Shown: positions 7,327 through 23,818 of the stretch, one piece after another
How positions within the stretch are numbered: position 1 is the first letter of the stretch
How the letters are laid out: every line of letters begins with the position of its first letter
Virus record (IMG/VR): IMGVR_UViG_3300024999_000378
Location: 1-24,604 of that record
Direction: 5' to 3' (one strand)
DNA: 24,604 nt
DNA from: a virus
Translations under genes and position numbers: made by a program
Notes under the pieces: generated by a model
Databases searched by the model: none
Seen by the model: the letters and a program-made list of their open reading frames with translations, nothing else
Told to the model about the DNA's origin: nothing

Positions 7327-8472
7327 GTGGGTAAAAAAATAACGTTAGAAGAAGCACGACAAGAATTTATTGATAAAAAGTTAATACCTTTGTTTAATGC
7401 ATATAAAAACAGCAAAGAAAAATTATTATCTAAAACACAAGAAGGATATATAATCGAACCAAGTTTAGGTAATTTAAAAAATAATCATATCCCCAATATA
7501 GTTTCCAAGTATAATATATATACTCTTCAAAATATCAAATTATGGTGCAAATTAAATAATAAACCATTTAAATTAATTGATGGTCAAGAATATAAAGATA
7601 ATAGTGAAAAATTAAAATGGCAATGTTTAAAAGAAAACTGTGGTGAAATATTTGAAATGACTTGGAATGATATACAATCTGGTCATGAGTGTGGGTTTTG
7701 TACTGGCCAGCAAGTATGTTTATCTAATTGCCTAGCAACAAAGAACCCAAAATTAGTATCTGAGTGGCATCCAACCAGGAATGGAGAATTAACTCCTTTT
7801 GACGTTACTTGTGGGAGCAGTAAAGAAGTTTGGTGGTTGTGTGATAAAGGGCATGAATGGGAAATGAAGATTTATACAAGGACTGGTATGAAGTGTAATT
7901 GTCCTTATTGTGCAGGCATATATCCATCAAAAGATCATAATCTATTATTTAATAATCCAAAATTATGTGAAGAATGGCATTACAATAAAAATAAAAAAAG
8001 ACCAGAAGAGTATACTCCTTTTAGTGGTGAGAAAGTTTGGTGGTTATGTAAAGAGTGTGGACATGAGTGGGATGCTGAAATTAAGAATAGAAGTAGAAAA
8101 TTAGGTACTGGATGTCCTAAATGTTTAGAGTCCAAAGGAGAACAGGGTATATCAAAATTATTAAATAAATACTATATTTATTATATACCTCAAAAACAAT
8201 TTGATGGTTTAATTGGTTTACGAAATGGTAATCTATCATATGATTTTTATTTACCCGTAAAGTACAATCTGCTCATTGAGTTTCAAGGATTGCAACATGA
8301 AAAGTATTGTAAAGGATTTCATAAATCTATCAAAGATTTTGAAAGGCAATTAGAACATGACAGACGAAAAAAAGAATACGCAGAACAGAACGGATATAAT
8401 TTTTTAGAAATATGGTATTGGGATATTGATAATATTGAAAATATTCTATCAGATTATTTGAAATTAACTTAG
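7327..8472 (+). CDS. Freestanding homing-type endonuclease: zinc-ribbon repeats plus PD-(D/E)XK nuclease
   Basis: A 381-residue protein with repeated zinc ribbons. Cys pairs occur at 122/125, 192/195, 241/244 and 263/266, with NPKLxxEWH at 140 and 210 and GHEW at 175 and 245. These features match the probable zinc-ribbon family DUF4379. The C-terminal nuclease (about 270-381) has LSYDFYLP (Asp306), LIEFQGLQH (Glu318, Gln320) and a QLEHDRRKKEYA helix, typical of very-short-patch-repair-like or PD-(D/E)XK phage nucleases. The start is probably GTG 7327, after GGAAAGGA. It splits portal from protease-scaffold and has its own upstream terminator, which is how mobile freestanding homing genes sit in phage structural operons. 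The target site and activity are inferred. Confidence 0.8.
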   Translation: MGKKITLEEARQEFIDKKLIPLFNAYKNSKEKLLSKTQEGYIIEPSLGNLKNNHIPNIVSKYNIYTLQNIKLWCKLNNKPFKLIDGQEYKDNSEKLKWQCLKENCGEIFEMTWNDIQSGHECGFCTGQQVCLSNCLATKNPKLVSEWHPTRNGELTPFDVTCGSSKEVWWLCDKGHEWEMKIYTRTGMKCNCPYCAGIYPSKDHNLLFNNPKLCEEWHYNKNKKRPEEYTPFSGEKVWWLCKECGHEWDAEIKNRSRKLGTGCPKCLESKGEQGISKLLNKYYIYYIPQKQFDGLIGLRNGNLSYDFYLPVKYNLLIEFQGLQHEKYCKGFHKSIKDFERQLEHDRRKKEYAEQNGYNFLEIWYWDIDNIENILSDYLKLT

Positions 8473-11083: not shown

Positions 11084-12202
11084 ATGAGTAATGTTTTAGG
11101 AATAGAGAATTTTAGACCAAGTGTTGAATTGAATAGCATTCAACCTGAACATAAATATACAGAAAAATCTCCTATTGTTGAGATTTTTAGTGCAATGGTT
11201 AGAGGTGAGGATACAAGTAGATTTGGGGAGAAGGCTAACAAAGCGAATGCTTATATTAAGAAATTAGGTACTGAGGCTTTGGCAGGTGATGGCAGAGCAA
11301 AAGTTGAATTGAACACAATTACAAGTCTTATGATTCAAGCACCTCTTCTTAAGAGGCTTCAGTTATTTAATTTTATGGGTAATGTAATAAATGTTGGATT
11401 TAATGAGAGATTACTTTATAAAGTATATAAACTTCAAGGTAAAATGTCTGGATTTCAGGCTAGTCAAGGTGATGTACCATTTGCAACCTCCACATGGAGT
11501 TATCGTGAAATGACAACTCAAACTATTTCTGGAGGTACAAGTATTAACTACAGGCAGTTAGCTACAGGAAACCCTGATAGTATTGCTCCTCTTGCAGAAC
11601 AAGTTTTAACTGATATGCAAAATAAAATTTTCTATACTGTAATGAATTCATTATATAATGGTGTTAAGAATGCAACTGGTATTAAAAATTTTGTTGAAGC
11701 TGCTGGAGTTACAAAAACATCAGTACAAAATATGTTAAAAACTACCCGTAGATGGGGAAATGTAGGAATTTTTGGTGATTATAGTGTGGTCTCTCAAATT
11801 AATGATATGACTGGATTTAATACAGATACCGCAGGAACTCTAGCCAAACAACTTCCTATCTCAGTAATTGAAGAAATTATGAAAACTGGTTTGATTTCTA
11901 CATTTTATAATAGTATTGTGACTGAAATTCCAAACAGTTATAATTTGCTAAAATTAAATTCTGATGGTACGATGTATGATACTTATTTACCCGAAGGTCT
12001 TCTTTTCTTCTTAGTTGCAGGGGAAACTGCATGTTTGCAAATTGGCTATCGTGGTGGATTGCAAAGTGCGACAGGATTTGATGTTGTAACAGGTGAATCT
12101 ATGACTAGATACGATCTTGAAGTGGGCAGCGTGATAATTCCTGAATATATCCCACAGATGGGTATTATTAGCGATTCTAATTTCCCTGTAGATAAACTGT
12201 AA
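11084..12202 (+). CDS. Major capsid protein (HK97-type fold expected)
   Basis: A 372-residue protein after the decoration gene, with a strong AAAAGGAGG site and followed by the strongest terminator of the region. The N-terminal 77 residues are charged and helical, like the delta domain of HK97-type capsid proteins. They contain SVELNS (13-18) and KVELNT (73-78). Cleavage after Asn77 would leave a mature protein of about 295 residues starting at TITSLMIQAP. The body has features of the fold: the GGTSINYRQLATG segment, the long helix LAEQVLTDMQNKIFYTVMNS and a beta-rich P-domain end. The call rests on gene order, length and layout. Confidence 0.85.
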   Translation: MSNVLGIENFRPSVELNSIQPEHKYTEKSPIVEIFSAMVRGEDTSRFGEKANKANAYIKKLGTEALAGDGRAKVELNTITSLMIQAPLLKRLQLFNFMGNVINVGFNERLLYKVYKLQGKMSGFQASQGDVPFATSTWSYREMTTQTISGGTSINYRQLATGNPDSIAPLAEQVLTDMQNKIFYTVMNSLYNGVKNATGIKNFVEAAGVTKTSVQNMLKTTRRWGNVGIFGDYSVVSQINDMTGFNTDTAGTLAKQLPISVIEEIMKTGLISTFYNSIVTEIPNSYNLLKLNSDGTMYDTYLPEGLLFFLVAGETACLQIGYRGGLQSATGFDVVTGESMTRYDLEVGSVIIPEYIPQMGIISDSNFPVDKL

Positions 12203-17069: not shown

Positions 17070-17117
17070 TTACATATGGTTTTCATATTTAGTTGCAACT
17101 GAATTGTGAAGTAATTG

Positions 17118-17160
17118 AAAGAGATTATAACTCTGATTTATAGTCTCTTTTCCCATTTTA
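17118..17160 (+). terminator. Intrinsic terminator closing the structural operon
   Basis: A 13-base-pair stem AAAGAGATTATAA with its complement (one T-G wobble), a 7-base loop, followed by TCCCATTTTA. It lies between the last structural gene and the first gene of the nuclease cluster. Confidence 0.8.
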
Positions 17161-17190
17161 TCCTTTAATCAGAGAAGAGGAGATAATAAA

Positions 17191-19254
17191 ATGTTAATAA
17201 CAAAAGAAGTGACTGTAAAATGGAACAGAAATAATAAAAAGAGATTTGTTGAATTAGGATATATTTTTACAAATTACGGTAATGAATTTATGGTAAAAGT
17301 AGAGGATTTGTCTATACATGCCCCAAATTCGGTAAATGTAACATGCGATTATTGCCAAGATGACGGAATATATACTATAGTTCCAAAGCAATGGGTTAAT
17401 TACTTAAAAGAGCGTAGAAATGTTGCAAAAGATACTTGTAGTTCTTGTAGATATAAAAAATATAAAGATGTACTTAAATTTAAACAAGAATCAAATGTGT
17501 TGACAAAAGAAGATATGGGATATTGGACTTTTAAAGAAAATAGACTTAAAGCATTAGACGAATTTATAAAAACATATGGAACAATATCCAAAATGGAATG
17601 TCATCTAGATGGTAGTGCATTGTATAGTGCATTAGTAAATTTTAAAGAAACTCCTCATGAATTGGCATTAGAGTTAGGATACAATCTTGATGAAATAATG
17701 AATATAAAACCAAATGGATATTATAATGATTTTGATGTATTTAAAAAAGACATTGAAAAACTTATAAGTAAATATGGACGATTTCCTAGAAGTACAGAAA
17801 TAATGCAAGAATTAAAAATTGATAATAGATATATACAAAATTTTGGTGGAATGTATGGCATTAAACGAAAAATGAATTATGATGGATCTAACGATTTAAT
17901 GGACAATAATAAATTCTACAATAATAGTACCTATGAATTATTTTCAGCCAATTTTTTAATATTCAATAATGTTCCTTATTTAAGAGAAAGAAAACCGTTT
18001 AAAAATGAAAATTATAGAAGTGATTTTATGTTTTCTATTATAAAAGAAAATGGAGAATTACAAGAATTGCATGTAGAGGTATGGGGTTGTGAGGATCACA
18101 ACACTACATCGAAGTTTGGCAAGGTATATATGGAAGTTAGAGAAATTAAAGAAAAGTTATATAAGAAAAATAATGTAGATTATATATCTATTGAACCAAG
18201 TGTTTTTATTAATAAAAAATATTCTCAAATACAAGAATCATTATATGATATTTTTAAACCATATTTAAATTTGGAATTTAAATATATTAAACAAGAAAAA
18301 TTCTTATCATTCAATTCTTTAAGTGACGAAGAATTAATGGTAGAGGTATTAAAATATAGTGATAATGATGAATATTTGCCATATGCATTATATTTACGAA
18401 CAGAAAATCATTCTCTTTATCAAGAAATTTTAAAAAGATTTAAAAATTATTCTGAGTTTGCGGAGAAATTTGGTAAACTTACTTTTGTAAAATCTAATGG
18501 ATATTGGGATAAAGAAAAAATATTTAATATATTTAAACATATGTTAAGTAAATATAACAAAATACTTAATAGAACTGAGATAAACAAATTAAAAGACACA
18601 GATATATTGATAGATGATATTAGTCATATAATTAGTTCTTTAAATAGGAAGGATAAATATGGTGGAGTATTTGAATTAAAAATAGAATTTTTTCACAAAT
18701 GTCAACAAAATAATATTGTAATACCAAAATCAGAAATAAAATGGCTTATAAATATAAGCAAAAATTCAACTCGTAGGGGAAATAAATTAGTTAGTGATGA
18801 ATATTCAGAATTAGCAAAACTTATATTGGAAAAATACAATGATAATGATATTAAAGATTCTATTATTAATAGTGAAACAGAATTAGAAAATATAGTGTTT
18901 AAATCGTTTGATTATATGATTGATAAATATGGACACATTCTTTCAATAAATGAATATCATGAATTTAAAAAGATGGATAGTAATTTAAATATAAATATTT
19001 ATAAAAGAATTACCAGATCATCAAGAGGTATTAATACATATAAATTAATGTACTTTCAGCATTGTGTTAATAATGATATAATATTACCAAATAAAGAAAT
19101 TGAATGGTTATTTGAAGTATCTTATGGAAGGTCTAGAAATCAGTTTAAACCTACTCCAGAACACCAACTTCTAGCAAAAAAAATATTAGAAAAATACAAT
19201 AATTCACAAGAAACAAACACAATCATCATAAATAAACAAAATTATGAGCAATAG
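17191..19254 (+). CDS. Large homing-type nuclease: treble clef, HARE repeat, PD-(D/E)XK core, tandem C-terminal repeats
   Basis: A 687-residue protein. Residues 52-86 form a Cys4 treble clef (CDYC at 52-55, CSSC at 83-86). Residues about 180-230 look like a homing-endonuclease-associated repeat (LISKYGRFPRSTEIMQEL then FGGMYGIKRKM). The nuclease core (245-360) has Glu249, Asp278 in YRSDFMF, Glu296 in HVEVWG and a Lys-rich helix (REIKEKLYKK), which fits PD-(D/E)XK with ExW in place of ExK. The C-terminus has two tandem repeats of about 105 residues (442-550 and 567-670) that share NxIxxP, EIxWL and an (L/I)LEKYN ending. The ATG follows AGAGGAG. Its N-terminus matches the gene at 21269 (both start MLxTKEVxV, with CDYC), so the two are relatives. 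It probably acts as a mobile site-specific nuclease. Activity is inferred. Confidence 0.75.
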   Translation: MLITKEVTVKWNRNNKKRFVELGYIFTNYGNEFMVKVEDLSIHAPNSVNVTCDYCQDDGIYTIVPKQWVNYLKERRNVAKDTCSSCRYKKYKDVLKFKQESNVLTKEDMGYWTFKENRLKALDEFIKTYGTISKMECHLDGSALYSALVNFKETPHELALELGYNLDEIMNIKPNGYYNDFDVFKKDIEKLISKYGRFPRSTEIMQELKIDNRYIQNFGGMYGIKRKMNYDGSNDLMDNNKFYNNSTYELFSANFLIFNNVPYLRERKPFKNENYRSDFMFSIIKENGELQELHVEVWGCEDHNTTSKFGKVYMEVREIKEKLYKKNNVDYISIEPSVFINKKYSQIQESLYDIFKPYLNLEFKYIKQEKFLSFNSLSDEELMVEVLKYSDNDEYLPYALYLRTENHSLYQEILKRFKNYSEFAEKFGKLTFVKSNGYWDKEKIFNIFKHMLSKYNKILNRTEINKLKDTDILIDDISHIISSLNRKDKYGGVFELKIEFFHKCQQNNIVIPKSEIKWLINISKNSTRRGNKLVSDEYSELAKLILEKYNDNDIKDSIINSETELENIVFKSFDYMIDKYGHILSINEYHEFKKMDSNLNINIYKRITRSSRGINTYKLMYFQHCVNNDIILPNKEIEWLFEVSYGRSRNQFKPTPEHQLLAKKILEKYNNSQETNTIIINKQNYEQ

Positions 19255-19463: not shown

Positions 19464-19504
19464 AATCTCATTCTTTTATTAATTTATTAGAATGGGATTT
19501 TATT
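19464..19504 (+). terminator. 11-base-pair hairpin directly upstream of structured RNA element A
   Basis: AATCTCATTCT pairs with AGAATGGGATT (one wobble) across a 14-base loop, and is followed by TTATTG. It may be a weak terminator or the first helix of element A. Element B has an equivalent 11-base-pair hairpin at 21094-21119. In both cases the next helix begins three bases after the hairpin ends. Confidence 0.6.
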
Positions 19505-19590
19505 GTGTTGAAAAATTACACAGTAAGCAGGATAGGGTAGCTCCCGAAAGATAAAATCCTTATTATCTTCCTGCTTCCAAATCGTAAGGA
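19502..19590 (+). promoter_or_regulatory. Structured leader RNA, element A (three-way junction with pseudoknot)
   Basis: The helices read from the sequence are as follows. P0 is 19502-19508 with 19518-19524. P1 is AAGCAGGA 19525-19532 with TCCTGCTT 19569-19576. P2 is GGG 19535-19537 with CCC 19543-19545. P3 is AGATAA 19549-19554 with TTATCT 19563-19568. The P3 loop TCCTTA (19557-19562) pairs perfectly with TAAGGA (19585-19590), making a pseudoknot eight bases after P1. P0 and P1 abut without a gap. The Shine-Dalgarno of the GIY-YIG gene (GGAG at 19606) lies 15 bases further on. A second copy (element B at 21122) keeps every helix with different bases. I match it to no RNA family that I know. 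A regulatory leader is the modest reading. Confidence 0.65.
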
Positions 19591-19620
19591 AATAAAAATA
19601 TTAAAGGAGATGTTTAATTA

Positions 19621-20460
19621 ATGAAAAATGTGCAAGAGTTTAATCAAGAAGAAGTTAAAGAGATTATCGATTATTTTGGACAAGAGATGAAAGAGCAGTA
19701 TGTGTCAGTTTTTAATTCAGTGTCACATGGAGTTTTAAGAGAATTACATTTTGTTTCGAAAATGCTGAAAGCAAATAAGTATGGTTATGTTTATTTCTTG
19801 TATAACGAGGATACTAAATTAACAAAAATCGGTTACTCTTTAGATTTGACAAAAAGGTTTAGTCAGATAAAACAATTGTATCAAAATTATGTAGGATTAA
19901 ATCCAAATTTAAAGTTAGTAGGAGTAGTTTATTTAAGTGACTTCTTGTTAAGCAAGTTTGAAGCTTCCGTCCATGAATTTTATAAAGACAATAGGAAATA
20001 TGGAGAATGGTTTGATTTAGACACAGATAATATTATAAAAGATTGGTTTTTGGAAGGAGAATATCTTTTTATAAATAATACCTATGTTCTTATTGAGGAT
20101 GCGTATGAATTTGAATATTTTGAAGAAGTTGATAAGGATTATGTTTTTAGTGAATCAGAAATATTATCATTTATGAAAAGTAAATATGGTATTAAATTAA
20201 AGGATAATTTTGATGTTTTTAATTTTCATAAAAATAGTCCTAAAAACAATAAACTTTGTCAAATATACAATACACATGAAGAAACAGGTTCAGGGTTGGC
20301 ATGTGTTTGCCTGTCAATTGATAACAATAGTAATAATTTTAAGTGCAAGGAATATACGTTTGGTAAAGATGATAGTAAATACTATAGTATTAAGTCCTTA
20401 AAAGAAGAAAAATTTAAATATAAGGATATTGAAAAAGCAGTCAATTTCTTAAGTAAGTAA
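19621..20460 (+). CDS. GIY-YIG nuclease of T5orf172 type
   Basis: A 279-residue protein with a compact GIY-YIG domain in the T5orf172/MUG113 style at residues 53-135. GYVYFLYNE (55-63) stands for the GIY strand and KIGYSLDLTKRF (69-80) for the YIG strand plus catalytic Arg79. Glu114 lies in the metal-binding position (SKFEASVHEFY), and the closing motif is YGEWFDL (127-133). Residues 1-50 are a helical extension, and 150-279 is a C-terminal region with no recognised motif. The ATG has AAAGGAG 11 bases upstream. The gene stands alone between terminators and behind structured element A. It is probably a freestanding mobile or defence-type nuclease; the target is unknown. Confidence 0.8.
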   Translation: MKNVQEFNQEEVKEIIDYFGQEMKEQYVSVFNSVSHGVLRELHFVSKMLKANKYGYVYFLYNEDTKLTKIGYSLDLTKRFSQIKQLYQNYVGLNPNLKLVGVVYLSDFLLSKFEASVHEFYKDNRKYGEWFDLDTDNIIKDWFLEGEYLFINNTYVLIEDAYEFEYFEEVDKDYVFSESEILSFMKSKYGIKLKDNFDVFNFHKNSPKNNKLCQIYNTHEETGSGLACVCLSIDNNSNNFKCKEYTFGKDDSKYYSIKSLKEEKFKYKDIEKAVNFLSK

Positions 20461-20484
20461 GCAAGATTAATAAATAAACTAAAT

Positions 20485-20526
20485 AACAAAGACATTGCTT
20501 TAGTGTGATGTCTTTGTTTTGATATT
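20485..20526 (+). terminator. Intrinsic terminator after the GIY-YIG gene
   Basis: AACAAAGACAT pairs perfectly with ATGTCTTTGTT (11 base pairs) around a 12-base loop and is followed by TTTGATATT. It isolates the GIY-YIG gene from the DUF1064 gene. Confidence 0.8.
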
Positions 20527-20552
20527 GGAATATTGGAGATGAAAGAAAATAA

Positions 20553-21062
20553 ATGGCAAAGAAAAAATACAGTAAATTTCACGTTAACTTGACAGACAAG
20601 GGGAAAGCAGATCGTACATATAAAAACATAACTTATGATTCACTTTTAGAGCTTAAATTCTTCAAAGAAGTAGTAGAAGTAGGATTAGAAAACGGAACAA
20701 TTATAGATTGTAAAAGACAAGTAAAATACGAATTACAGCCAAAATTTAAACATAATGATAAAAATATTCTTGCTGTGAACTATGTTGCCGATTATGTTTT
20801 AACTTATGCCAAAGATGATTCTGGAAACAATCCTGTAATAGTTTTTGATATTAAGGGTGGTATGGTAGATCCAATAGCAAAGCTCAAAAAGAAAATGTTC
20901 CACTATAAATATCCTGAAATTGATTATAGATGGATGAACCACTGCACATTGGATGGAGGGTGGCAAGAATATTCAATAATAGAAAAAGGACAAAAAGATA
21001 GGAAGAAAGCGAAGAAGTTAGATAAAGATAAATTGAAGGTTAATAAAGAAGTTAATAAATAA
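20553..21062 (+). CDS. DUF1064-type PD-(D/E)XK nuclease
   Basis: A 169-residue protein with the features of DUF1064 phage nucleases: an N-terminal helix with YDSLLELKFF (Glu33), VNYVADYVLTY (Asp80) and VIVFDIKGG (Asp99, Lys101), which together make a PD-(D/E)XK active site. Residues 102-125 (MVDPIAKLKKKMFHYKYP) are the usual following helix. The C-terminal 30 residues are Lys-rich and probably disordered. In other phages this family lies among DNA-metabolism genes and is proposed to act in recombination or junction processing. Finding it among homing-type genes at the end of a structural operon is unusual. The ATG at 20553 has only a weak GGAGATGAAAG site upstream. Confidence 0.8.
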   Translation: MAKKKYSKFHVNLTDKGKADRTYKNITYDSLLELKFFKEVVEVGLENGTIIDCKRQVKYELQPKFKHNDKNILAVNYVADYVLTYAKDDSGNNPVIVFDIKGGMVDPIAKLKKKMFHYKYPEIDYRWMNHCTLDGGWQEYSIIEKGQKDRKKAKKLDKDKLKVNKEVNK

Positions 21063-21093
21063 ATAATAAATAATTTAATCAATTATAGAACTC

Positions 21094-21121
21094 AGGCACT
21101 TCATTAATATGAGGTGCTTAC
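21094..21121 (+). terminator. 11-base-pair hairpin directly upstream of structured RNA element B
   Basis: AGGCACTTCAT pairs with ATGAGGTGCTT (two G-T wobbles) around the loop TAAT. The T-run after it is poor (ACTTTG), so it is a weak terminator or the first helix of element B. It matches the hairpin at 19464 in stem length and in its distance to the next helix. Confidence 0.6.
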
Positions 21122-21241
21122 TTTGTGTGATTGATTAATGGTTATTAATGGATTGATTTACACAAATAAGTGGGATAGTGAATAGCTACACGATAAGCCA
21201 ATTGTCCTATTGGTTTCCTGCTTATTACTTTTTGGAGGACA
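21122..21241 (+). promoter_or_regulatory. Structured leader RNA, element B (three-way junction with pseudoknot)
   Basis: This is the second copy of the element at 19502. P0 is TTTGTGT 21122-21128 with ACACAAA 21160-21166. P1 is TAAGTGGGA 21167-21175 with TCCTGCTTA 21216-21224 (two wobbles). P2 is GTG 21178-21180 with CAC 21189-21191. P3 is CCAAT 21198-21202 with ATTGG 21209-21213. The P3 loop TGTCCT (21203-21208) pairs perfectly with AGGACA (21236-21241), a pseudoknot eleven bases after P1 as drawn, or nine after the two extra A-T pairs available to P1. Conserved primary pieces are TTACACA, GGATA, TAGCT, TCCT and TTCCTGCTT. The P0 loop carries its own ATTAAT-GGTT-ATTAAT hairpin. It leads into the nuclease gene at 21269. 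Confidence 0.65.
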
Positions 21242-21268
21242 AATAATACGAAGGACGGTGTTGTAAAG

Positions 21269-22837
21269 ATGTTAAAAACAAAAGAAGTTGAAGTAGTTTT
21301 AGGTTCAATAAATATCAAACATTATGAGGAAAAAGGTTATGTAATTTCAAGAGTAAAAAGGCCAAATGGTAAAATGCAAGTAGAGCGTAATACAAAAATA
21401 ATAGTTAATGTAAGTGATTTACCAGACAAATGTAAACAAGAAGTTGAATATGTTTGCGATTACTGTGCAGAAGAAGGAATCCATAATGTAATTCAAACTT
21501 CGTGGGCAAATTATTATAATCATAAAAAAGATATTATAAATAAAGATGCGTGTGGTAAACATTCGATGCAAAAAGCAATTGAGATGGGTACTACTAATTT
21601 TATTCAAAAGAAAATGATTCCTAAAGAAGAAATTGTAAAATATTATTTAGAATTAGCAAATAAACTTCAGTGTATTCCAAAGACAAAACATATTAATGCC
21701 GAGTCTAAAATTAACCCTGATTTTCCAACAATAAATATTATATATAATGTATTTGGAACTATTAATGATTTAAAAAAGTATTGTAATTTAGATACTGTAT
21801 ATTTTAAATATACTCCATTGCAACTTATTGAGTCATTAACAGAATATATAAAAATAAATGGCATTCCATCTAGTATTATTAAAACATTTAAAAAGAAGAA
21901 TAATTTATCGTCATACAAAACATATGTCTTTCATTTTGGAAATGATTTTTCTAATTTAATAAAATTGTGCGGTTTTGAATTAACGGAAAGTGAAGAACAT
22001 GATATACGTACAAGAGGCAAAGCAAATACATTGTCAAAAGAAGAAGTGATATTAATGATTAAAAATATGCAAAATAAATTAGACAGACCATTAATTTCTC
22101 ATGATTTTGATAATCCAGAAGATAATGAGATTGGAATTACAACAATTAAAAAATATTGGGGCAGTATTAATGTGATGAAGGAAGAATTAGGGTTTACTAT
22201 TACTCATAAAAATCTTAAAGAATTATCTAGACCGCTTGAACAATTAAAAGAAGATATTATAATACTTTGTAATAAAATTCAAAACGAAGAACACAGAACA
22301 ACGATATCTAAAGATGATATTGATAATTGTGACTTTACAATGAGTTATAGTACATACAACAAAATATTCCATGAACAATTGAATATGTCAATTAGTGATT
22401 ATATTTATAGTATTGGATTTAAGTTTTTAAAAGCTGGTAATGGCATGGTCTATCATTATGATGATGGAGAAATTACATCTTCTCAATTTGAGTATGTTTT
22501 TACAAATTATTTGAGAGATATTAATCTAAAATTTAATTCGGATTACAATAGGGGTGTTAGATACAATACTTTTATTGACGATTATAAAGGAATGATGGAT
22601 TGTGATTATGTAATAAAATATAAAGATAGACTAATTTATGTTGAGATTGCAGGTATGTTAAGAGATTATAAAAATTCATATTATAGAGATAAACCTATAA
22701 TTAATAGTAAATCTAAAGAAGAATATAGACAGAAACTAATGAAAAAGGAAGATATATTTAAGGAGTCAGGAGTAGAATATTACATATTATTCCCTAGTGA
22801 CTTGAATGATGAGACTTATAGTAAAATATTTAATTAG
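21269..22837 (+). CDS. Homing-type nuclease: treble clef, four HARE-like repeats, PD-(D/E)XK core
   Basis: A 522-residue protein. The N-terminus (MLKTKEVEVV, then CDYC at 63-66 and Cys95/His98) is a treble clef related to that of the gene at 17191. Residues about 120-172, 182-235, 257-309 and 323-385 look like four homing-endonuclease-associated repeats, each ending in a G-x-hydrophobic turn such as YWGSINVMKEELGF. The C-terminal nuclease (400-515) has Glu408 (SSQFEYVF), Asp446 (MDCDYVI), Glu459 (IYVEIAG) and a lysine helix (EEYRQKLMKKEDIF) before GVEYYILFPSDL, which fits PD-(D/E)XK with ExA in place of ExK. The ATG has AAGGACGGTG upstream. It is preceded by structured element B and followed closely by the recombinase gene. 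It likely cuts a specific DNA site; this is inferred. Confidence 0.75.
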   Translation: MLKTKEVEVVLGSINIKHYEEKGYVISRVKRPNGKMQVERNTKIIVNVSDLPDKCKQEVEYVCDYCAEEGIHNVIQTSWANYYNHKKDIINKDACGKHSMQKAIEMGTTNFIQKKMIPKEEIVKYYLELANKLQCIPKTKHINAESKINPDFPTINIIYNVFGTINDLKKYCNLDTVYFKYTPLQLIESLTEYIKINGIPSSIIKTFKKKNNLSSYKTYVFHFGNDFSNLIKLCGFELTESEEHDIRTRGKANTLSKEEVILMIKNMQNKLDRPLISHDFDNPEDNEIGITTIKKYWGSINVMKEELGFTITHKNLKELSRPLEQLKEDIIILCNKIQNEEHRTTISKDDIDNCDFTMSYSTYNKIFHEQLNMSISDYIYSIGFKFLKAGNGMVYHYDDGEITSSQFEYVFTNYLRDINLKFNSDYNRGVRYNTFIDDYKGMMDCDYVIKYKDRLIYVEIAGMLRDYKNSYYRDKPIINSKSKEEYRQKLMKKEDIFKESGVEYYILFPSDLNDETYSKIFN

Positions 22838-22864
22838 TAATAAATAAATTAAGGAAGTGTATTG

Positions 22865-23818
22865 ATGGCAGAAAGAAGCAAGCGTATTAATTTTTATGAT
22901 GCTGAAAAACTTAAGAAGATAAATCCAGAAACAATGAAATTATGGAATAAATATAAAATTGATATGACAATACGTGAATTATCTCAAGGAACGATAGATG
23001 GTTACGAAAACGACATACAACATTGGTTAATTTATATATATGATAAACAAGTGAACCAATGTATAACTGATTTACAAGAGGATGATATTATTGAATTTAT
23101 TTACTTTTGTAAAATAGAAGGAAATAATTCACGTAGAATGAAACGTAGGATGTCATCTCTTTCTGCTTTTTATAAATTTCTTAGAAGAAAGAAGATAATT
23201 CTTGAAAATCCAATGGAATTTATAGAAAGACCTAAGAAGGATACAGATATAGCAGTTCAAACGTTTTTAACACAAGAGCAAGTAGATTTTATGAAAGATA
23301 AATTGAAAGAACATGGTGATATTCAATTAGAAGTTTACGCATTATTTTCATTATCTACTATGGCAAGGGTTACAGCAGTATCAAATACAAAATGGGATCA
23401 AATTGATTTTGAAGCAAGGACAGTTAATGATGTTTTAGAAAAAGAAGGTAAAATAGTTACTCTGTATTTTAATCAAGAAGTCAAGGATAAACTTAGAGAA
23501 TTGCAAGAATATAGAAAAATTAAAGAAATCAATGATTTAGGATTTGTTTTTATTACTAAGTGGTCGGGAGAAATAAGAAATGCAAATTCAGGAACTTTAT
23601 TTGATTGGTCAAAACGGATTGGTAATCTAGTTGGTATACCTACTTTACATTGCCACGATTTTCGCCATTCTGGGAGCCAACTACTAAAATTAGCCGGGAT
23701 GCCGATTGAGGATATTTCTGAATTATTGAATCATTCGGGATTAGATGTAACTAAGAAATTTTACCTAAGACAAGATAAAAAGAAAACCCAAGAAAACAAA
23801 GATAAATATGGAATATAA
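22865..23818 (+). CDS. Tyrosine recombinase (integrase, XerC/D-like)
   Basis: A 317-residue recombinase. The N-terminal part has a SAM-like core-binding domain (about 35-110; a helix with TIDGYENDIQHWLIYI). The catalytic domain carries the full set of residues: Arg168 in STMARVTAV, Lys196 in KEGKIVTLYF, His264-x-x-Arg267 in HCHDFRHSG, His290 in LLNHSG and Tyr300 in KKFYLR. The Arg motif is ARVTAV instead of the more common LRxSEL. I chose ATG 22865; a TTG directly before it (22862) would add one residue, but AAGGAAG is better placed for the ATG. It lies 27 bases after the nuclease gene and is the last phage-like gene. It could integrate the phage, with an attachment site nearby, or resolve circular dimers. 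Confidence 0.9.
   Translation: MAERSKRINFYDAEKLKKINPETMKLWNKYKIDMTIRELSQGTIDGYENDIQHWLIYIYDKQVNQCITDLQEDDIIEFIYFCKIEGNNSRRMKRRMSSLSAFYKFLRRKKIILENPMEFIERPKKDTDIAVQTFLTQEQVDFMKDKLKEHGDIQLEVYALFSLSTMARVTAVSNTKWDQIDFEARTVNDVLEKEGKIVTLYFNQEVKDKLRELQEYRKIKEINDLGFVFITKWSGEIRNANSGTLFDWSKRIGNLVGIPTLHCHDFRHSGSQLLKLAGMPIEDISELLNHSGLDVTKKFYLRQDKKKTQENKDKYGI

Follow-up and report, generated by a model that had tools for sequence, protein, structure and literature searches.

Divergent int-alpA RNAs in front of unrelated phage nuclease genes: candidate translational switches acting in cis

Results

Two RNA elements precede unrelated nuclease genes

The window, by which we mean the whole 24,604-nucleotide stretch of viral DNA that was analysed (IMG/VR record IMGVR_UViG_3300024999_000378, positions 1 to 24,604), carries two RNA elements, A and B, each of which leads into a gene of nuclease type (Table 1). 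The P1, UA linker, P2, P3 and six-base-pair pseudoknot of the original prediction are all present in both elements. A search with the shared pieces joined into one pattern, GGATA..TAGCT..TTCCTGCTT, gives exactly two matches in the window, at A and B, whereas 100 shuffled versions give none. The proteins behind A and B have no Pfam family in common, and no close relatives of either were found among named phages. Two further nuclease-type genes, at 2294-2812 (NUMOD3/I-HmuI-like) and 7327-8472 (DUF4379), lack the RNA element, so that genes of this type abound in the window. A DUF1064 gene stands directly before B (20553-21062) and a similar gene stands before the element in locus L001 (340-852), which suggests a shared insertion place.

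Table 1. Elements A and B, their parts and the genes behind them (positions in the window)
Feature	Position	Strand	Remarks
Element A, whole	19464-19590		as originally placed; position confirmed
A, upstream 11-bp terminator-like hairpin, then T-rich sequence	19465-19499	+	outside the family core
A, P0 (TGTGT...ACACA)	19504-19522	+	abuts P1; local-subfamily feature
A, core	19525-19576	+	R2 match 19524-19596, covariation
A, P1	19525-19532/19569-19576	+	strands AAGCAGGA/TCCTGCTT
A, UA linker	19533-19534	+
A, P2 (GGG/CCC)	19535-19537/19543-19545	+	loop UAGCU
A, P3	19550-19554/19563-19567	+
A, P3-loop segment TCCTTA	19557-19562	+	able to pair with site 1 or the Shine-Dalgarno
A, pseudoknot partner TAAGGA (site 1)	19585-19590	+	6 bp with P3 loop
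A, hairpin P4 (AAATATT/GATGTTT)	19596-19615	+	Shine-Dalgarno inside P4 loop
A, Shine-Dalgarno AAGGA(G)	19604-19609	+	second site complementary to P3 loop
Gene behind A: T5orf172/MUG113 (GIY-YIG-type) nuclease, 279 aa	19621-20460	+	Pfam E 4.7e-5, 5.2e-6
Element B, whole	21094-21241		as originally placed; position confirmed
B, upstream hairpin and P0 region	21094-21166	+	subfamily feature
B, core	21168-21223	+	R2 match 21167-21243, covariation
B, P1	21168-21175/21216-21223	+	strands AAGTGGGA/TCCTGCTT
B, UA linker	21176-21177	+
B, P2 (GTG/CAC)	21178-21180/21189-21191	+
B, P3	21198-21202/21209-21213	+
B, P3-loop segment TGTCCT	21203-21208	+
B, pseudoknot partner AGGACA (site 1)	21236-21241	+	6 bp with P3 loop
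B, hairpin P4 (ATAATAC/GTGTTGT)	21243-21264	+	Shine-Dalgarno region GAAGGACG inside P4 loop
B, AGGACG	21252-21257	+	also complementary to P3 loop; in Shine-Dalgarno region
Gene behind B: 522-aa protein, homing-endonuclease-associated repeat (HNH_repeat)	21269-22837	+	PF18780 E 7e-8

Relatives preserve the fold while its sequence changes

A small number of relatives was first obtained by a pattern scan of IMG/VR, and a relaxed pattern (GGATAGGGTAGCTCC...TTCC) yielded at least 120 stretches there, nearly all of which, among those listed, repeat the layout of A and B. Nine stretches came from bacterial and metagenome-assembled contigs, with L166 among them unconvincing, and the core is matched in 59 named phage records, in the weaker cases perhaps through chance. 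Every homologue was picked up either with a pattern taken from A and B or through its similarity to the core, so this sample is biased towards the A/B core. The pattern matches L002, L004 (a tRNA), L009, L089 and L166 were rejected as non-relatives, and the GC-rich L030, L034, L081 and L121 were excluded as doubtful.

Because MAFFT misplaced P3 in divergent rows, a first model was built on five rows only. A second covariance model, R2, was constructed from 18 matches, with A and B and the three relatives nearest to them excluded. Nearly all of its loci were selected for a match of the Rfam int-alpA model (RF02996, gathering cut-off 35.8 bits) to the record concerned; among the 18 matches themselves, a few lie below that cut-off or were never scored singly. 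In the window R2 has only two matches at E <= 10, one to A (19524-19596, 68.8 bits, E = 1e-21) and one to B (21167-21243, 45.2 bits, E = 2e-13). A nuclease-like gene at 17191 has another hairpin-rich leader (17070-17191) with a purine-rich ribosome-binding site, which R2 does not assign to int-alpA.

Across 107 distinct matches, standard pairs fill 96.6% of pair cells; shuffling lowers the figure to 66.8%, and sliding the partners lowers it to 55% or less. The alignment does lean towards the structure, to which it was fitted. Fifteen of the 16 pairs have changed on both sides, and P1 and P3 are free to vary in sequence while remaining paired. Thus the base changes do preserve pairing, as had been proposed from the two copies in the window.

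The 11-bp hairpin and P0, which had been counted as part of the common architecture along with P1, the UA linker, P2, P3 and the pseudoknot, do not belong to the family core, as they are absent from many relatives. They can be seen by eye in the closest ones (L001, L003, L011 and L012) and are local additions to the A/B subfamily. At L008 and many other loci a sigma70 -10 box occupies the corresponding place. Just upstream of the core, 31 of 97 elements have an exact TATAAT, where chance would give 2.2; most of these boxes lie at a distance of 8-11 nt, which would place the start of the RNA at P1. Elements A and B have no TATAAT at the usual place, where they carry the terminator-like hairpin and P0 instead.

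A and B belong to the int-alpA family

Judged by sequence and fold, A and B are divergent int-alpA RNAs (RF02996), since both are detected by a model that was derived from RF02996-associated loci and did not include them. The RF02996 model itself matches neither element, at its gathering cut-off or at E <= 10. An Rfam scan of the window returned nothing at family cut-offs and chance-level matches only at E <= 10; on this ground a group I intron or known riboswitch was rejected, neither of which had been recognised by the first reading either. RF02996 exceeds its cut-off in L012, L041, L055, L160, L161, L169, L184, L191, L192 and L195, and in 15 of 50 related records. The leader in L012, which scores 41.2, closely resembles A. 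The Rfam model therefore misses much of its own family. The novelty claimed for the RNA falls with these relatives (L012, L041, L055, L169 and others), which are int-alpA by Rfam, rather than with any match to A or B themselves.

The int-alpA consensus and the two elements share the order P1, UA(G), P2, GAAAAG, P3 with a CCUU-type loop, P1' and an AAGG tail; A and B differ from it in falling below the model threshold and in having the additional upstream hairpin and P0. The family takes its name from a neighbourhood of integrase and alpA genes. The window has an integrase gene at 22862-23818, and no alpA gene was seen there. Rfam types int-alpA as an sRNA gene and not as a cis-regulator. In the literature found on int-alpA other than its founding paper, the family occurs as a bare name in a table, and neither a leader role, nor a link to nucleases, nor a second complementarity to the Shine-Dalgarno sequence is described. 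The family is thus already catalogued, and the proposal for its function appears to be new.

The RNA is combined with many kinds of gene

Among 102 downstream ORFs, comparison with Pfam and PHROGs indicates HNH, NUMOD4, AP2, GIY-YIG, T5orf172, endonuclease VII and DUF559 nucleases, which bears out the earlier suggestion that the RNA is reused in front of unrelated nuclease genes. By our reading, a stand-alone nuclease gene directly follows the RNA at about three quarters of roughly 100 loci; the fractions are approximate, as the ORF picked automatically behind the RNA was incorrect or questionable at a few loci (L016, L077, L083 and L100). About a quarter of the downstream genes were not recognised as nucleases (for example RepO, DUF927, SieB, Bro-N, Rha and deltaproteobacterial unknowns). 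They include replication, exclusion and antirepressor genes, and the role of the RNA may therefore be broader. In the temperate phages L183, L184, L187 and L189 (P22-like, Tyrion, Ab105-2phi and Klebsiella) the genes behind the RNA are not clear nucleases but small hypothetical genes or genes of Rha type.

In phage D6E the RNA leads into an HNH gene, and in Dulem virus 33 and Flyfo siphovirus the RNA and its endonuclease gene are opposed to the direction of their neighbours. Enterobacter phage Tyrion, Vibrio phage PS15B and Psychrobacter phage pOW20-A are among its cultured carriers. At one terminase-portal site in Vibrio phages, the RNA occurs with an HNH-type gene (L190, L195), with a T5orf172 gene (L194) or, together with the gene, not at all (L196). 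Promoter and RNA architecture are alike in the three occupied cases despite the different genes, and L194 and L195 differ in the sequences of P2 and P3 while both complementarities of the P3 loop (see below) are readable in each. L195 (641-793) shares site and promoter with L190, its core being replaced by a very different int-alpA sequence with P2 GCTTTAGC. L012 has a second copy (11108-11184), the 3' half of which is nearly identical to B, with another P2 and a different gene behind it; from the sequences, this is modular exchange of leader and gene.

The P3 loop matches two downstream sites

We found that the P3 loop is complementary not only to site 1, just after P1, but also to the Shine-Dalgarno region of the gene behind, a match that the original prediction had overlooked. 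At least five base pairs can form with site 1 in 93 of 98 non-redundant elements, compared with 25 when loops are permuted among elements (z = 25), and with the Shine-Dalgarno side in 79 of 98, compared with 35 (z = 16); permutation does not fully remove relatedness. Among 19 elements without a shared 4-mer in their pairing segments, both matches exceed all 2000 permutations. The two pairings have at least three loop bases in common in 92 of 98 elements, and in 83 of 98 it is the downstream site, not site 1, that has the better complementarity to 16S rRNA. A good second match is absent from some elements, such as L082 and L087.

Predicted pairing energies are close, with means of -6.7 kcal/mol for site 1 and -5.8 kcal/mol for the Shine-Dalgarno; the corresponding values are -5.2 and -4.6 kcal/mol in A and -7.0 and -6.9 kcal/mol in B. 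A hairpin P4 of at least five base pairs is found in 60 of 98 elements, compared with 19.7 when flanks are shuffled, and its loop often holds the Shine-Dalgarno copy.

A possible translational switch and its alternatives

We lean, if only slightly, towards the view that A and B are each the 5' leader of a stand-alone phage nuclease gene and act as translational switches in cis. The transcript would begin with, or close to, a compact fold made of P1, P2 and P3, and the P3 loop would pair with one or the other of two downstream sites that are almost the same in sequence. Pairing with site 1 would close the pseudoknot and leave the ribosome-binding site free (the ON state), while pairing with the Shine-Dalgarno (site 2, in the P4 loop) would block the ribosome (the OFF state). 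Because the same loop nucleotides are used, the two pairings would be mutually exclusive, and it is this that points to a translational switch in cis. We infer that both pairings form, that the one with the Shine-Dalgarno lowers translation and, likewise, which state is the default; a ligand, a protein, processing or the state of transcription may tip the balance. A leader that silences the nuclease was among the roles first offered for the RNA, and it gains support from the complementarity of the P3 loop to the Shine-Dalgarno region. For int-alpA as a whole, we consider the chances evenly balanced that its members are widespread switches of this type, with a P3 loop that selects either a decoy or the Shine-Dalgarno, and that they serve as an interchangeable control cassette for phage nucleases of unrelated kinds and for a few further genes of phages.

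Alternatively, processing of the leader might yield a separate small RNA, spanning P1 to P3, whose targets in trans would be its own transcript and sister transcripts, in the manner of the C4 antisense RNA of phages P1 and P4. Transcription would then be constitutive, the RNA would be released and the Shine-Dalgarno of the gene would be blocked. The Rfam typing as sRNA fits this account, as do the sigma70-like promoter at P1 in many members, the antirepressors or regulators among the genes behind the RNA (L012, L078, L187) and the resemblance of a loop with two mRNA sites downstream to C4 and its targets, phage P4 having C4 and c4-a1b1. However, loops differ within one phage, and each matches its own downstream sites (TCCTTA in A with TAAGGA and AAGGA, TGTCCT in B with AGGACA and AGGACG), which favours action in cis; nor is a processing site known. 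We therefore regard action in trans as unlikely.

A riboswitch, in which the conserved junction of P1, P2 and P3 (UAGGGUAGCUCCCGA) binds a small ligand that chooses between the loop pairings, seems to us quite improbable. The junction and the P2 loop are strongly conserved while the helices vary, the downstream pairings are mutually exclusive and the host range is wide. But the conservation is partly built into the sample by the search pattern, P2 is replaceable (as by GCTTTAGC in L195), the RNA has no known ligand, and most genes downstream encode selfish nucleases and show no metabolic theme.

It is very improbable that the pseudoknot alone matters, as a stabilising or translation-enhancing 5' structure, with the likeness of the Shine-Dalgarno region to site 1 a by-product. 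The pseudoknot does give the stronger of the two signals; however, the Shine-Dalgarno match is loop-specific relative to permutation, even among unrelated loops, and the Shine-Dalgarno region lies in a hairpin loop above chance. That the RNA serves the nuclease as its partner or guide, or the nuclease gene as a signal for mobility, is hardly credible. In favour of it, nuclease genes are frequently associated with the RNA, and two RNAs that guide other nucleases, HEARO and RAGATH-18, lie nearby in L007 and L016. Against it, these two represent other families and sit elsewhere, the nucleases come from families that are not related, and the RNA ends in the nuclease gene's own Shine-Dalgarno.

Under the switch in cis, which we prefer, an orphan Rfam family gains a concrete and testable job, tied to very common selfish phage genes. 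If this is true, unrelated phage nucleases have in common a single, exchangeable cassette for control by RNA, the logic of which (one loop, two matching sites) can be read; it could then also serve as a compact natural translation switch.

Comparison with known systems

RNA structure at the gene start, which conceals the ribosome-binding site, holds down translation of the phage homing endonuclease genes T4 I-TevI, Aeh1 mobE and T4 segB (PMC3014915). The start-hiding structures of I-TevI and mobE show that phage nuclease genes are controlled in such a manner (PMC3014915). These are simple local structures, whereas int-alpA is one conserved, pseudoknotted RNA whose loop has two possible partners.

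HEARO (RF02033) resembles the int-alpA leader in being a phage-borne RNA that adjoins an endonuclease ORF. It is a guide for IscB and, unlike A and B, about 200 nt long; its model matched neither element in the Rfam scan of the window. Two phage contigs with an int-alpA-type leader also carry such RNAs, HEARO in L007 (4332-4517) and RAGATH-18 in L016 (2344-2415).

The C4 model (RF01695) has no match in the window or in related loci, yet it finds C4 in phage P4. An identity of int-alpA with the CI/C4 RNA of phage P4 was rejected, as that phage has C4 and c4-a1b1 and no int-alpA. In the C4 antisense RNA of phages P1 and P4, a loop is complementary to downstream mRNA sites that include the ribosome-binding region. 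A and B are alike to it in outline, each being a small phage RNA with a loop complementary to the ribosome-binding region, and by this analogy C4 is their closest counterpart in logic.
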